DNA from: a virus
Length of the DNA: 35,126 nt
Virus record (IMG/VR): IMGVR_UViG_3300032285_003999
Location: 1 to 35,126 of that record
Direction: 5' to 3' (one strand)
This document shows positions 9,306-32,704 of the stretch, piece by piece. Every line of letters starts with the position of its first letter. The stretch's first letter is position 1. The translations under genes were made by a program, and so were the position numbers. The notes below the pieces were generated by a model. The model was not told where the DNA came from. It was given only the letters and a program-made list of their open reading frames with translations, and searched no databases.

Positions 9306-9339
9306 AAAACCTTTGCAAATATTATTTGGTTCAGGCAAA

Positions 9340-9390
9340 AATAACGGCGTCGCTCCATGCGGTGCTACCTGAGACGTACGAAAGTCGTAA
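9340..9390. other. GC-rich, possibly structured patch
   Basis: Between the early operon end and cassette 1 lies a stretch much richer in G and C than its surroundings. It includes a TACGA-AAG-TCGTA mini-hairpin (9377-9389) and a TCAGG/CCTGA pair (about 9333/9368). It may be RNA structure in the 3' end of the early transcript. No known RNA was recognised. Confidence 0.3.
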
Positions 9391-9430
9391 GAGATTATTA
9401 ATATTTGCTTTTTAAAAAATAAATAAAATA

Positions 9431-9463
9431 AATCTTGAAAAATGTATTGCATATTTCAAGATT
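9431..9463. promoter_or_regulatory. Palindromic operator of cassette 1
   Basis: AATCTTGAAA (9431-9440) and TTTCAAGATT (9454-9463) are perfect reverse complements, with a further ATG/CAT pair inside. The -33 TTG (9447-9449) lies in the centre, so a dimeric protein bound here would block the promoter. The ribbon-helix-helix protein encoded in the cassette is the natural candidate. Confidence 0.65.
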
Positions 9464-9476
9464 AGTTGTATATTTG
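9447..9476 (+). promoter_or_regulatory. Promoter of cassette 1
   Basis: TTG at 9447-9449, a 19-base spacer, then TATATTTG at 9469-9476: an exact Bacteroidota consensus. It is followed by a 44-base leader containing CAGCAACG and ending AAGACA before the ATG. Confidence 0.7.
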
Positions 9477-9520
9477 TATTGTTATCAGCAACGAAGCTGA
9501 AACGCAAAACTTTTAAGACA

Positions 9521-9769
9521 ATGGAAACTCAATTATTATCAGCAGAAAAAGTAGATTTATTTTTAGGTATTGAATCAAATAAAGAAAATTATGAATTTTT
9601 AGACGTAACAGAAGATTGCAAAGATGTTGAAGATTTTATTAAAAATTCTGAAGCTGGACAATGTTTTGATTTAGGAGAAAGTGAAGGTTATGTTTATAAA
9701 ATTAAAGATGAAAATAATGATTTTTATTGCATTGTAAAAAAAGGTGCAAGTGTAGGTTATTATAATTAA
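9521..9769 (+). CDS. Cassette 1 gene A: small acidic protein
   Basis: An 82-residue acidic protein (METQLLSAEKVDLFL...) of unknown function. I place the start at the ATG at 9521 rather than an upstream in-frame TTG (9479), because the TTG lies almost at the transcription start and because the other cassette has the same AAGACA-ATG junction. It sits in its own transcription unit with a GC hairpin after it and a DNA-binding protein next. An acidic partner beside an autoregulatory DNA-binding protein recalls toxin-antitoxin or anti-repressor pairs, but which role it has is open. Confidence 0.65.
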   Translation: METQLLSAEKVDLFLGIESNKENYEFLDVTEDCKDVEDFIKNSEAGQCFDLGESEGYVYKIKDENNDFYCIVKKGASVGYYN

Positions 9770-9775
9770 CAAAAT

Positions 9776-9809
9776 AAGCCCTCTCGGTGCTGACACACTT
9801 TGAGGGCTT
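9776..9809 (+). terminator. GC hairpin between cassette 1 genes (attenuator)
   Basis: AAGCCCTC (9776-9783) pairs with GAGGGCTT (9802-9809) around an 18-base loop (TCGGTGCTGACACACTTT). TTTAAAACTTTT follows, an imperfect U-tract, so partial termination before gene B is likely. The loop resembles that of the hairpin at 31504-31539. Confidence 0.65.
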
Positions 9810-9833
9810 TAAAACTTTTAAGAAATCAAAGAT

Positions 9834-10064
9834 ATGCAAGAAAAAGAAATAAACCAATACGGAGGAAAAAGGCAAGGTGCTGGAAGAAAAAAAGGCAAAA
9901 CTAAAACCACAAAAACCTTTCGCATAGATGATGATTTGTGTGAGTATCTTGATAATAAAGTTGGCAATAAAAATGAATTTATAAATATGTTAATTCGCTC
10001 ATATAAAGAAAACAGCGAAGCAATCATAAAAAAAATAGACAAAATATTAGAACAAGAAAAATAA
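9834..10064 (+). CDS. Cassette 1 gene B: ribbon-helix-helix-like DNA-binding protein
   Basis: A 76-residue basic protein. Residues about 10-25 carry GGKRQGAGRKKGKTKT, a motif common before small DNA-binding domains in phage proteins. Residues about 26-58 fit a ribbon-helix-helix: strand TFRIDDDL, helix CEYLDNKV, helix NEFINMLIRSY. The likely role is autorepression through the palindrome at 9431-9463 (inference). It starts ATGCAAG, as does gene B of the other cassette. Confidence 0.7.
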   Translation: MQEKEINQYGGKRQGAGRKKGKTKTTKTFRIDDDLCEYLDNKVGNKNEFINMLIRSYKENSEAIIKKIDKILEQEK

Positions 10065-10070
10065 ATGTTT

Positions 10071-10195
10071 TAATATTGTACGTCGTTAGCAACGGAATAG
10101 TAATATAAAGTACAAATCACAATCGCACCTTAACGCTAACGACCTTTGTAATCGCACCAAATGGAATTTTAAGCCTCGTCATTCGGGGCTTTTTG
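10071..10195 (+). ncRNA. Candidate small RNA or orphan cassette leader
   Basis: TAATATTG at 10071-10078 is one base off TAnnTTTG. Nine bases later comes AGCAACG (10088-10094), the same leader motif found 10-11 bases after the -7 boxes of both cassettes. No reading frame follows. Instead there is a 9-bp inverted repeat, GTCGTTAGC (10082-10090) with GCTAACGAC (10135-10143), a direct repeat of AATCGCACC (10121, 10150) and a terminator. A transcript of roughly 110 bases is possible. The -33 box is weak (TTAG near 10047). Confidence 0.35.
10171..10195 (+). terminator. Intrinsic terminator, probably bidirectional
   Basis: AAGCCTCG (10171-10178), loop TCATT, CGGGGCTT (10184-10191), then more T. There is one G-T pair in the stem. 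It lies six bases before the stop of the last leftward late gene, so it separates the converging rightward and leftward transcripts. On the minus strand the hairpin is followed by AAAATT, a weaker terminator. Confidence 0.75.
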
Positions 10196-10679: not shown

Positions 10680-11888
10680 TTATGTTTTCCAATCAAAAAG
10701 ATACTCCTTAGTTTCTTTGCTATTTTCGGTATAATTAAAAAATACAAAGCCCGATTTTCCCCTTGCAAAATTAGTCTGCACCCAATCGCTGGACGGACTC
10801 AAAGCAGGATAGTTGTAATAATTGAACTTGCTCGGGGTGCTGTCAAATAAATATTGATGGCTGTCTCCCTTAGAAAATTCAATGGTGCTACCTTGTTTAA
10901 ATAGGTAATTAACATCTATGTATTCATTTATTTTCTTCTCGTGAACGTCATCAAGTTTCGGTTTAAACCCAAATTTCAAGTTTTTATCGTCTTTTCCGTG
11001 AGTCAAAATAAAAGTGAAATTTCCTACTTTGTAGTGTCCGATAAACTTCCGCTGATTCTCCACAACTACATTTTTTGGATATTTCAACTCCACAATAACC
11101 TTAAACGCACTATTTACAATATAACCAAAATCAGCACTATGATTATCTACGCAAATATTATGAATAAATATCTTGTCGTAGTATTTTATCAACTCATCCA
11201 CCATTTGCACCTTGAAACTTATACCACAGTCAAAAGCCTTTTGGTTTGACATATTTTGGGGTAAATCGTGTCCTTTTCTTGCTGTCTGACCATCCCATCC
11301 ATCCATGTAATCGCCCAAATCATCAATATACAATACATTACTTTTTTGATGGCTTACAACGTGGTTTATGATAATATTCAACCGCTCAAACAATTCCTCC
11401 GCATCCCACTTACCACCATAAAGGCTGTTGCCTTCGGGGTTTACATTCATTCCAATATGCGTATCGGTGTAAACTAATCTATCAAAAAAACCTAACTGTT
11501 TTTTCTTTTTAGTAACCTCAACTGGCTTAAACTCCTCACTAAAAATCGCCTTAAAATCAATTTCCTTAACTGCTTGCTCCTGTACATCTACATAATTAGG
11601 ATTCTTAACAAAAGCCGATATTTCCTTCGTTTTAAACCAAAGATGCTTCATTGCACTATTCGGCACGTCAATACTTTCAGTCGCATTATAAACGCCTTCG
11701 TGTTCGTCTAATATCGCCTTACGGTTTCGTGCAATTTGCTTTCGTAATGTTCCAAAACTTGGATGATTTTCCCCTAAATCGCTATCCTCAGCCAAAACTC
11801 TTTTTGCAATAATAGAATCATTTAAGTCCTGATTATTAGTCAAAACTTCAATAATTTTATCCTTGTATTTCTTGAATATTTCGCTCAT
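10680..11888 (-). CDS. Metallophosphoesterase with N-terminal HTH-like domain
   Basis: A 402-residue calcineurin-like metallophosphoesterase. Metal-site motifs occur in order: D142-T-H144 (YTDTHIG), G192-D193-Y-M-D196, N249-H250 (CVDNHSADF) and H297-G298 (THGKDD). Residues about 1-60 look like a winged-helix segment (SIIAKRVLAEDSD, SFGTLRKQIARNR). Such phosphoesterases occur in many Bacteroidota phages, and the substrate could be nucleic acid or a nucleotide. Its place between the lysis genes and the holin candidates is odd, since it looks like a DNA-metabolism enzyme expressed late. Confidence 0.85.
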   Translation of the reverse strand: MSEIFKKYKDKIIEVLTNNQDLNDSIIAKRVLAEDSDLGENHPSFGTLRKQIARNRKAILDEHEGVYNATESIDVPNSAMKHLWFKTKEISAFVKNPNYVDVQEQAVKEIDFKAIFSEEFKPVEVTKKKKQLGFFDRLVYTDTHIGMNVNPEGNSLYGGKWDAEELFERLNIIINHVVSHQKSNVLYIDDLGDYMDGWDGQTARKGHDLPQNMSNQKAFDCGISFKVQMVDELIKYYDKIFIHNICVDNHSADFGYIVNSAFKVIVELKYPKNVVVENQRKFIGHYKVGNFTFILTHGKDDKNLKFGFKPKLDDVHEKKINEYIDVNYLFKQGSTIEFSKGDSHQYLFDSTPSKFNYYNYPALSPSSDWVQTNFARGKSGFVFFNYTENSKETKEYLFDWKT

Positions 11889-31028: not shown

Positions 31029-31052
31029 ACGGAAGTTTTTTCCGTTTTTTTT
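31029..31052 (+). terminator. Plus-strand intrinsic terminator
   Basis: ACGGAA (31029-31034), a 5-base loop, TTCCGT (31040-31045), then seven T. It points rightward, yet no rightward gene lies between 10064 and here. It could shield the cassette at 31127 from antisense readthrough. On the minus strand there is no U-tract. Confidence 0.7.
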
Positions 31053-31126
31053 ATGATCTATATTTTGCTTCTTTTTAATATTTGTTTGCACTCAACAATA
31101 TATTTTTAAATATTTATAAAAATAAT

Positions 31127-31144
31127 TGTCAATATATATTGACA
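31127..31144. promoter_or_regulatory. Palindromic operator of cassette 2
   Basis: TGTCAATATATATTGACA is a perfect 18-bp palindrome. Its right arm contains the -33 TTG (31139-31141). A dimeric repressor here would block the promoter. The HTH protein of the cassette is the likely ligand. Confidence 0.65.
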
Positions 31145-31168
31145 TTCCAATAAAAAGCATTATCTTTA
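31139..31168 (+). promoter_or_regulatory. Promoter of cassette 2
   Basis: TTG at 31139-31141, a 19-base spacer, and TATCTTTA at 31161-31168, one base off TAnnTTTG. The 44-base leader contains CAGCAAC and ends AAGACA before the ATG, like cassette 1. Confidence 0.65.
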
Positions 31169-31212
31169 TATCATCAAACAGCAACAAAGCGGTTTGCTAA
31201 ATAAATAAGACA

Positions 31213-31497
31213 ATGTTATTATCTGAAAAATTATTCACAGAAATTAAAGAATCAACAAAAGTTAAAATGTTTATTGATGAATCAGCAAACATTTTTTGGG
31301 TTTCAAAAGATGGTCATTATGTTTGGATGTCGCAAGATTCAACTTACAATGAATATCTTGATGAAACTCACATTGAAGTAAAACAAAAATCACCTGAAGG
31401 TGTTGGAAATACAGGGGTATATTGGAATAATGAAGATTTTAATAATCCTTTCCATGTTACCGATTTTGAAGAAAGAATCGCAACTATCAATATTTAA
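31213..31497 (+). CDS. Cassette 2 gene A: small acidic protein
   Basis: A 94-residue acidic protein starting MLLSEKLFTEIKES, of unknown function, on the strand opposite to the surrounding late genes and with its own promoter. Aromatic-rich strands (NIFWVSKDGHYVWMSQDS) suggest a small beta-sheet fold. No clear similarity to gene A of cassette 1 beyond a short LLS.K start. Stop at 31495-31497, then a GC hairpin and gene B. Confidence 0.65.
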   Translation: MLLSEKLFTEIKESTKVKMFIDESANIFWVSKDGHYVWMSQDSTYNEYLDETHIEVKQKSPEGVGNTGVYWNNEDFNNPFHVTDFEERIATINI

Positions 31498-31503
31498 TAA
31501 AAA

Positions 31504-31539
31504 AAGCCCCCTCGGTTGCTCTATTAACTTTGGGGGCTT
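31504..31539. terminator. GC hairpin between cassette 2 genes; strong terminator on the minus strand
   Basis: AAGCCCCC (31504-31511) pairs with GGGGGCTT (31532-31539), loop TCGGTTGCTCTATTAACTTT. On the plus strand no T-run follows, so it acts as an attenuator at most. On the minus strand the stem is followed by an unbroken T-run (complement of the A-run 31499-31505), a textbook intrinsic terminator facing the late operon. Confidence 0.75.
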
Positions 31540-31552
31540 AATAAATAAGACT

Positions 31553-31798
31553 ATGCAAGATAACACAATAAGTTGGAAACAAAGATTTAAAAGCATGAAA
31601 GATTTTTATGGATATACTTTGGAAGATATATCAGAAATAACTGGAAATAGTTATGGCTCTGTCAGAACCGTAATAAGTAGTAAATCACAAGACTTTCCAA
31701 GATGGCTCAAATTAGCAATTGTAAATTATGAAATGGAGCGTGAACGTGAAATTGAAAAAGACCCAGATTTTAATCCAAGTATTTTTGAAAATGAATAA
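31553..31798 (+). CDS. Cassette 2 gene B: HTH DNA-binding protein
   Basis: An 81-residue protein with a helix-turn-helix at about 21-42 (YTLEDISEITGNSYGSVRTV) of the XRE/Sigma-like type, followed by a basic-aromatic helix (RWLKLAIVNYE) and an acidic tail. Likely the autorepressor of the cassette through the palindrome at 31127. The start is the ATG at 31553, just after the hairpin. An upstream extension of the frame overlaps gene A and is not used. Confidence 0.7.
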   Translation: MQDNTISWKQRFKSMKDFYGYTLEDISEITGNSYGSVRTVISSKSQDFPRWLKLAIVNYEMEREREIEKDPDFNPSIFENE

Positions 31799-31803
31799 TT
31801 TAA

Positions 31804-32079
31804 TTATTTATTCTTAACCTGCTTTTTTCGTTCGTCCAATTTATTAATGGCTTTAATATCTCCCGACTTAGCCATTTCAAATAACTTTAAATCAATCAAA
31901 TAGCCACTATAATCCACACCTTTGTTATATAATTTTTTTATTTCAGAATTTTCATTTCTAAATTCTTTTTCGAAAGTCTCTCTCTCAAAAGACATAATAC
32001 TACATATTTTTGAAACTGGATAGCCTAATGCACCCATATTTTGCAGCATCATACTTTGTTCTTCTGTTAATTTATTCAT
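31804..32079 (-). CDS. Small helical protein, terminase-small-subunit-like
   Basis: A 91-residue protein. The first half resembles an HTH (LGYPVSKICSIMSFERETFE) and the second reads SGYLIDLKLFEMAKSGDIKA INKLDERK, a pattern familiar from small terminase proteins. The similarity is by eye and weak. The phage already has a P27-type small terminase, so this may be a second packaging regulator or an unrelated DNA-binding protein. It overlaps the PLD-like gene by 8 bp, suggesting the two work together. Confidence 0.55.
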   Translation of the reverse strand: MNKLTEEQSMMLQNMGALGYPVSKICSIMSFERETFEKEFRNENSEIKKLYNKGVDYSGYLIDLKLFEMAKSGDIKAINKLDERKKQVKNK

Positions 32080-32704
32080 TTGATAACCAATCGAATTGGT
32101 TTTTTAAATTATTAAATATTCTGTCTAATGACCTATTGACAATTGATGAATCTGGAGTAAATCCAACTGGCATTTCTCCAAAAGTTTGAGTTATAAAATC
32201 TTTATAAAAATCATAAATTTCAGTTGATTCGTCAATTTCAAAACTTTCACAAGTCCTATTAGCATTCAAATTCATTGAAGTTCTAATAACAACTTTATAA
32301 TTATCATTAGCAATTAAACAAAACTTGGCGTGAAGTTCAGAGGTTCTAATATTTTCCTTCCCAAATAATTCAGTCAATTGCAATGCGTATTTTGATTGTC
32401 GAGTAACATAGGAATGATCTGTAACAAGCAAAAATGATTTTATTAAATTGCTATCAACCATCCATTTTACCGTATTTGCATCTTTTATTCCAGCCGACCA
32501 TGTAGCACAAATAACATCTGAACTACCTATATTTTGTAAGATTGAGTAAATCAAATCAATTAATGAAAATTGTCCTCTTGTAAGCCCAATTATTCTAATA
32601 TCTTTTTTAATTAATCTTGCAACCTCAGAAGCCGTGGTATTAGGCATATAGGCTAAAGATGCTTTTTTTTGTGGTATTTCTTTAACTATATCTAATTTTT
32701 TCAT
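32072..32704 (-). CDS. PLD-like (HKD-type) domain protein
   Basis: A 210-residue protein with one phospholipase D-like motif: H125-A-K127, then S143-M-N145 in RTSMNLN and E154 in CESFEIDE. The aspartate expected after HxKx4 is A132, so the motif is atypical. A single HKD half-site would need to dimerise to form an active centre, as in Nuc-type nucleases. It could be a nuclease, a DNA-binding relic or a lipid enzyme. It overlaps both neighbours (ATGA upstream, 8 bp downstream) and sits between terL and portal, where accessory genes often enter. Confidence 0.65.
   Translation of the reverse strand: MKKLDIVKEIPQKKASLAYMPNTTASEVARLIKKDIRIIGLTRGQFSLIDLIYSILQNIGSSDVICATWSAGIKDANTVKWMVDSNLIKSFLLVTDHSYVTRQSKYALQLTELFGKENIRTSELHAKFCLIANDNYKVVIRTSMNLNANRTCESFEIDESTEIYDFYKDFITQTFGEMPVGFTPDSSIVNRSLDRIFNNLKNQFDWLSNE

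Follow-up and report, generated by a model that had tools for sequence, protein, structure and literature searches.

A conserved regulatory chassis carries exchangeable cargo genes at two loci of a phage genome

We have analysed a 35,126-nt virus record of ~35 kb from IMG/VR (IMGVR_UViG_3300032285_003999), and this whole stretch of DNA is called the window in the following. It contains two small cassettes on the plus strand, and in each of them a cargo gene (A) is followed by a gene for a putative DNA-binding regulator (B). A sequence-only reading had described them as twin two-gene cassettes built on one regulatory chassis, and this architecture was borne out, with all coordinates of locus 1 (9431–10064) and those of locus 2 (31127–31798) confirmed. 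The features of locus 1 are as follows.

9431–9463, plus strand: operator, palindrome AATCTTGAAAAATGTATTGCATATTTCAAGATT across the −33 box, 28 of 33 positions self-complementary
9447–9476, plus strand: promoter, with TTG at 9447–9449, N19 and the −7 box TATATTTG at 9469–9476
9480–9504, plus strand: 5'-terminal leader stem-loop with loop AACGAA; every leader folds so, with compensating changes between phages
9521–9769, plus strand: cargo gene A1, 82 aa, pI 4.2, acidic orphan; unrelated ORFs stand instead in L002, L007, L010 and L040
9777–9809, plus strand: separator hairpin AGCCCTCTCGGTGCTGACACACTTTGAGGGCTT with paired changes; the block 9762–9834 is conserved though the flanking cargo is unrelated in the relatives
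9834–10064, plus strand: regulator B1, 76 aa, predicted ribbon-helix-helix (RHH), with 71–83% identical homologues in three relatives
10171–10191, plus strand: intrinsic terminator 3' of B1, from a terminator scan

Locus 2 has the corresponding parts.

31051–31805, plus strand: cassette 2 as an accessory insertion unit, missing in L034; the junction shifts by some bases between aligners
31127–31144, plus strand: operator, perfect 18-bp palindrome TGTCAATATATATTGACA, with a 20-bp perfect form TTGTCAATATATATTGACAA in L008
31139–31168, plus strand: promoter, with TTG at 31139–31141, N19 and TATCTTTA at 31161–31168
31175–31196, plus strand: 5'-terminal leader stem-loop CAAAC-A-GC-AACAAA-GC-G-GTTTG, with a compensating outer stem in L003
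31213–31497, plus strand: cargo gene A2, 94 aa, pI 4.6, acidic orphan, kept in L006 and replaced in L008 and L004
31505–31539, plus strand: separator hairpin AGCCCCCTCGGTTGCTCTATTAACTTTGGGGGCTT with a 7-A run on its 5' side
31553–31798, plus strand: regulator B2, 81 aa, predicted helix-turn-helix (HTH), 87–96% identical in three relatives

At both loci, 44 nt separate the −7 box from the start codon (ATG 9521 and ATG 31213, with predicted transcription starts at ~9481 and ~31173), and both leaders contain CAGCAACRAAGC and AAGACA-ATG. The TAnnTTTG-like −7 box that had been proposed for the two cassettes is present at locus 1, while at locus 2 its final base is A and not G. The locus 1 promoter fits the F. 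johnsoniae consensus TTTG/TANNTTTG (PMC6847099), with T at −12 and G at −5, and both leaders fit the start context favoured in Flavobacterium, i.e., A at −3 (PMC6847099). Such a −33/−7 promoter and an A-rich start are the norm in the phylum; the finding consists of the leader stem-loop, the hairpin, the operator and the gene order.

The core protein encoded at 10680–11888, which is a calcineurin-like phosphoesterase in annotated homologues, has its closest annotated phage relatives (52–55% identity) among phages that infect the flavobacterium Cellulophaga. The relatives used here are IMG/VR contigs. In a scan of 2.9 million viral contigs, the leader pattern was found in five, of which four are real instances, and the remaining relatives were found by hairpin, protein and neighbour-gene searches. 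The comparative sample comprises nine operons from a single phage group and one distant leader, that of the more distant phage L003, where it accompanies a 122-aa acidic cargo protein. The nine operons are distributed as follows.

Locus 1 with RHH-like B1: the window, 32330_002083 (L010), 09185 (L007) and 27730 (L002)
Locus 1 with HTH-like B3 instead: 11337_000383 (L040)
Locus 2, all with HTH-like B2: the window, 32330_002083 (L006), 12667 (L008) and 11337_000394 (L004)

The two 11337 contigs share one metagenome and may be one phage. Searches of ~400 Flavobacteriales genomes each for B1, B2 and the phosphoesterase neighbour found none of the three, and these searches, run without a positive control, show little.

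At both loci, i.e., in the window and four relatives for locus 1 and in the window and three relatives for locus 2, a small unrelated ORF has taken the place of the cargo, or the cargo has been joined by a second one. The cargo at locus 1 has 82 aa in the window, and 91 aa, 64+71 aa, 65+85 aa and 111 aa in the relatives. At locus 2, the sizes are 94 aa (window), 94+93 aa (L006), 70 aa (L008) and 143 aa (L004), and the extra ORF of L006, with its own ATAAGACTATG start segment, is inserted between A2 and the hairpin. When all cargo proteins are compared against each other, there is no significant similarity (best E 0.037), and the sole recurrence is A2 in L006. The 12 cargo ORFs are small, soluble and almost all orphans. 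Gene A had been called acidic, which holds for both window copies and for most relatives (10 of the 12 proteins), whereas two are basic. No hydrophobic segments were found in the cargo proteins. Pfam, PHROGs, NCBIfam, PADLOC and PDB give no family above the cut-off for the cargo, and the same databases give no match to a known Acr, another anti-defence family or a toxin family. Only one cargo protein has an outside homologue: the 71-aa cargo of L007 is related (E=2e-5) to the product of the first ORF next to a CI-like repressor in a Porphyromonas prophage. In this prophage operon (L094:2917–3414, BK068109.1), the first ORF, which has the L007-cargo domain, precedes a GC hairpin and more small ORFs. 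A single weak match of one cargo family in 396 genomes of the phylum spans an efflux-pump-like gene and was dismissed.

The identity of the promoter-leader to that of the window is 88–99% at locus 1 of the B1 phages, 75% in L040, which has a different operator, and 98–100% at locus 2. Within one type, the B genes are 80–98% identical at the DNA level. The 86-nt promoter-leader has an identity to the window of 100% in L008 and 98% in L004, while the 400 nt upstream show 63%. Since random segments of the window average 64%, this upstream identity is at background level, which indicates that the chassis is conserved independently of its surroundings. In addition, the BLAST blocks stop at the chassis edges (9425–9523 and 9762–9834 at locus 1; 31097–31215 at locus 2).

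The regulators and operators of the two loci had been described as different, and the predictions agree with this: B1 is RHH-like, B2 is HTH-like, and each has a separate palindrome. B1 weakly matches a MazE-type RHH (E=1.6e-4, below the cut-off), and its low-confidence model places two helices after residue 33; the fold predictions of B1 and B2 have a mean pLDDT of 59, i.e., low confidence. B2 matches PHROG 8898 (E=4e-7) and is related to gp3/gp5 of Polaribacter phage P12002L with an hhalign probability of 91.6%. For B1 and the third regulator B3 the HMM matches are weak, and B2 and B3 show no detectable relationship. The common start ATGCAAG noted for gene B applies to B1, B2 and B3, but the B1 homologues of the relatives and the B2 copy of L004 start with ATGGAA.

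The inverted repeat is regulator-specific and lies inside the core promoter, over the −33 box. B1 goes with the palindrome CTTGAWAAATGTATTGCATA..TCAAG, B2 with TTGTCAATATATATTGACAA and B3 with TTGTCCAAACATTTGGACAA, so that operator type tracks regulator type throughout the group, in nine of nine operons. In these same nine, a DNA-binding-like gene lies 3' of the cargo, presumably on a single transcript. The symmetry of the locus 1 palindrome is kept in L007 by paired A/T changes (GAAA..TTTC to GATA..TATC), and the palindrome of L002 is less symmetrical (18/33). At locus 1 of L040, the operator (TTGTCCAAACATTTGGACAA) and the regulator (HTH-like B3) have both changed, whereas the leader stem-loop and the separator hairpin are retained, with the hairpin block (window 9764–9834) and the outer flanks still 82–85% alike. 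As operator and regulator have been exchanged despite gene A and the conserved hairpin block between them, this case offers the strongest sequence evidence that B may act at the palindrome.

The leader opens at the predicted start with a stem-loop, whose hexaloop is AAC(G/A)AA, or AGCAAA in L007. Compensating changes occur in its inner stem (CAGC/GCTG to TAGT/GCTA in L040) and in the outer stem of the locus 2 form (CAAAC/GTTTG to ATAAC/GTTAT in L003). Among five distinct leader rows, 88% of cells are paired and two pairs are changed on both sides; 14 of 500 shuffles reach this covariation score, the sample being small, and the folding z-scores of single sequences are modest (−0.6 to −3.7). Since three unrelated regulators share one leader, B is unlikely to bind there. 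For the separator hairpins, the covariation score is reached by 1 of 500 shuffles: their eight distinct forms have 98.7% of cells paired, with paired changes in both helices. Most of them have a run of 4–11 A on the 5' side (only 2 A at locus 1 of the window) and only 2–3 T on the 3' side, so that any activity as intrinsic terminators is expected mainly on the minus strand, which is the late-gene strand. The terminator scan of the window called them on neither strand. Our prediction is that the separators hinder late antisense transcription into the cargo and let plus-strand transcription reach B. Neither the separator nor B is obligatory, because L003 has no separator hairpin and no recognisable B, and L004 has no hairpin. 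We have also considered pairing of the leader CAGCAAC with the separator GTTGCT, as in antitermination or attenuation; the two are complementary in several copies, yet the pairing fails to track the changes in L007 and the window, and it was rejected. An Rfam search of the window returned no family.

Within the window, CAGCAACNAAGC upstream of AAGACAATG is found at these two loci and nowhere else. When hairpin 1 is compared with the rest of the window, hairpin 2 comes out best, with a score of 45 (30 at the next-best unrelated place), and 1 of 5000 dinucleotide shuffles reaches the score of this pair. Local alignment gives weaker support for the leader pair taken alone, whose score is reached by 25 of 5000 shuffles. 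The decisive support is comparative, i.e., the same chassis at the same place with different cargo in related phages. A scan of phages for the chassis, proposed earlier as a check, found the leader and hairpin patterns with varying cargo in this phage group, and the leader also in L003; all other matches among the 2.9 million viral contigs (L005, L009 and others outside the group) were judged to be apparent chance or coding matches. In 84,980 bacterial and archaeal species genomes, the leader pattern has 18 matches; the five Bacteroidota ones were inspected and lie within ordinary coding sequence, and the remaining 13, not read individually, are non-Bacteroidota. One may suppose that the resemblance is trivial, being that of ordinary Bacteroidota leaders and terminators before ordinary genes, as the −33/−7 promoter and the A-rich start context are normal in the phylum (PMC6847099) and GC hairpins are common. 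With the scan results above, and with a chassis that is conserved where its flanks diverge, we regard this as highly improbable. The sequence-only reading had named a lack of copies in relatives, or a general Bacteroidota sequence, as what would speak against it, and the scans revealed neither: the chassis is not a general Bacteroidota leader or terminator, and its family is narrow rather than general.

Cassette 2 carries its own promoter and lies on the strand opposite to the surrounding late genes. Its neighbours are the portal gene (Pfam Phage_portal, E 7e-81) on one side and, on the other, the small ORFs that precede the large terminase. Because the near-identical phage L034 has it cleanly missing, with flanks 91.5% and 94.8% identical to the window, we regard cassette 2 as an accessory 'moron'. 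That is, it shows what marks a phage moron, an autonomous unit between genes that is absent in a close relative. For cassette 1, no empty site was found among the relatives. Overall, the relatives show the modular cassette that had been proposed, in which a common regulatory chassis is combined with a regulator of its own and with cargo that can be exchanged, and they include a swap of regulator plus operator. On the level of sequence comparison, chassis conservation, cargo turnover, operator-regulator co-change, RNA structure and the empty site are established.

The neighbourhood of the cassettes has several features of its own. Directly upstream of the locus 1 promoter (9309–9411) lies a candidate structured RNA with a long closing stem GCAAATATTA/TAATATTTGC and at least two internal hairpins. 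It is conserved in L002, L007, L010 and L040, with three pairs changed on both sides; it has no Rfam match, and a pattern scan of the viral contigs finds this group only. The genes just upstream of the locus 1 chassis vary too: the 101-aa protein of the window is replaced by a 365-aa unknown protein in L036, and L040 has a DNA methyltransferase-like protein and a 153-aa unknown protein. In L008, the end of the large terminase gene occurs twice, together with the small ORF that follows it: in addition to the full copy elsewhere in the contig, this part is repeated just upstream of cassette 2 (L008:3412–3680), which is due to duplication or an assembly effect. The product of 32072–32704, between the terminase genes, has weak PLD-like domain similarity (E=0.013), and by inspection a protein resembling it follows the cassette in L003 and L004. 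Beside the leader of L003 (L003:8283–8400), an intergenic RNA candidate with a promoter-like TATATTTG has a long-range stem GCTCGCAAC/GTTGCGAGC that overlaps a terminator-like hairpin.

We consider it probable (roughly 0.6) that the two cassettes are autoregulated accessory operons ('morons') working like anti-CRISPR/Aca operons, with the cargo as early counter-defence and B as autorepressor. The architecture is well supported; from here on we infer the repression by B, the early timing, the function of the cargo in anti-defence and the route of recombination. The strong Bacteroidota-type promoter would fire early in infection, as we assume, and the 5'-terminal stem-loop and the favourable A-rich start context on the mRNA would give a burst of the cargo protein or proteins, most likely small counter-defence proteins against host immunity. 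Read-through of the separator hairpin would then allow B to be transcribed, and B (RHH at locus 1, HTH at locus 2) would bind the palindrome over the −33 box and shut off its own operon. Since each slot has its own operator/regulator pair, we propose that one genome can carry both with no cross-talk between them. The leader, the hairpin and the start-site segments around the ORFs may serve as short homology for exchanging or adding cargo.

Among the functions suggested earlier, i.e., toxin-antitoxin, exclusion and anti-defence, the last seems to fit best. It is supported by the small soluble orphan cargo, the downstream DNA-binding protein and the core-promoter operator, which match acr-aca anatomy (PMC9410906). 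If A were a toxin and B its DNA-binding, autoregulating antitoxin, two small genes under an autoregulation-like operator would be expected, RHH and HTH proteins are common as antitoxins, and the weak, below-cut-off MazE-type match of B1 points the same way. A cognate antitoxin should, however, change with its toxin, and here B stays 71–96% identical, whereas unrelated proteins of 64–143 aa, sometimes two of them, take the place of A. In addition, A is mostly highly acidic, unlike typical toxins, and matches no toxin families, so that a toxin-antitoxin role is disfavoured and seems quite improbable to us. More weight should be given to the idea of generic lysogeny or accessory morons, with cargo that aids the lysogen (fitness, superinfection immunity) and a B that keeps prophage expression low. 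The cassettes are autonomous promoter units, cassette 2 lies among opposite-strand late genes with an empty site in L034, and the 518-aa ORF at 676–2232 looks by inspection like a tyrosine integrase. On the other hand, soluble proteins with no hydrophobic segment argue against exclusion at the membrane, and the very fast cargo turnover suits an arms race better than lysogen housekeeping. We hold the lysogeny account unlikely, but worth keeping in view.

As an extension of the counter-defence reading, the cassettes may possibly represent a standardised Bacteroidota-phage expression slot, a suggestion that we put forward tentatively and with more doubt than belief. The RNA leader (5' stem-loop, loop AACRAA) and the separator hairpin would be the constant parts, and cargo, repressor and operator would be exchanged as parts. 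Some common factor of the host or the phage, rather than the repressor, would read the leader, the separators would act both as a block to antisense late transcription and as recombination joints, and B1 would found the first ribbon-helix-helix Aca-type family. If the counter-defence reading is right, the chassis may be used as a search key for new counter-defence genes in Bacteroidota phages, with about a dozen candidate inhibitors already at hand, and Aca-type control would extend to ribbon-helix-helix proteins. It would also mean that the expression slot stays fixed in phages while its cargo and its regulator can each be replaced on their own. In a phylum without Shine-Dalgarno initiation, one may ask what reads the constant RNA leader.

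Several known systems resemble these cassettes in part. In Polaribacter phage P12002L, the B2-like HTH proteins gp3/gp5 are encoded close to the small terminase gene, where the surrounding ORFs are small and unknown, and we know of no autoregulation by them. The SAS/ESAS of cluster K mycobacteriophages are likewise conserved start-associated sequences, some with inverted repeats, upstream of a gene subset (PMC3203893). SAS, however, is a 13-bp sequence at 11–19 translation starts per genome (PMC3203893), whereas here there are two copies, each of them a complete operon with promoter and regulator. In archaeal viruses, proven anti-defence genes have been reached by way of a conserved regulatory sequence of early genes whose cargo is highly diverse (PMC11065993). 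These Aca8 regulons of SIRV2 and its relatives share with our cassettes the conserved regulatory sequence before unrelated cargo, there anti-defence, and the Aca-like repressor (PMC11065993), but their promoters are archaeal, and one regulator controls what are mostly single genes. Our cassettes have one regulator per slot, and an RNA stem-loop is among the parts that they share.

In acr-aca operons (Aca1–Aca12), as here, variable small orphan cargo comes first and a small DNA-binding protein last, an inverted repeat lies in the core promoter, and the operons are found on mobile elements, phages among them (PMC9410906, PMC9765179). Every bacterial Aca family that has been tested acts as a repressor at an inverted repeat in the core promoter, and aca lies downstream of acr (PMC9410906). 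Unlike in these operons, no known Acr is among the cassette cargo. The 12 accepted Aca families are all HTH (PMC9765179), whereas B1 looks RHH by a weak match, and the HTH-like B2 and B3 have no sequence match to the solved Acas in PDB; we do not claim B1, B2 and B3 as members of the known families, for which HTH is the mark. Another difference from acr-aca operons is that three unrelated regulators are here combined with the same RNA leader and separator hairpin.
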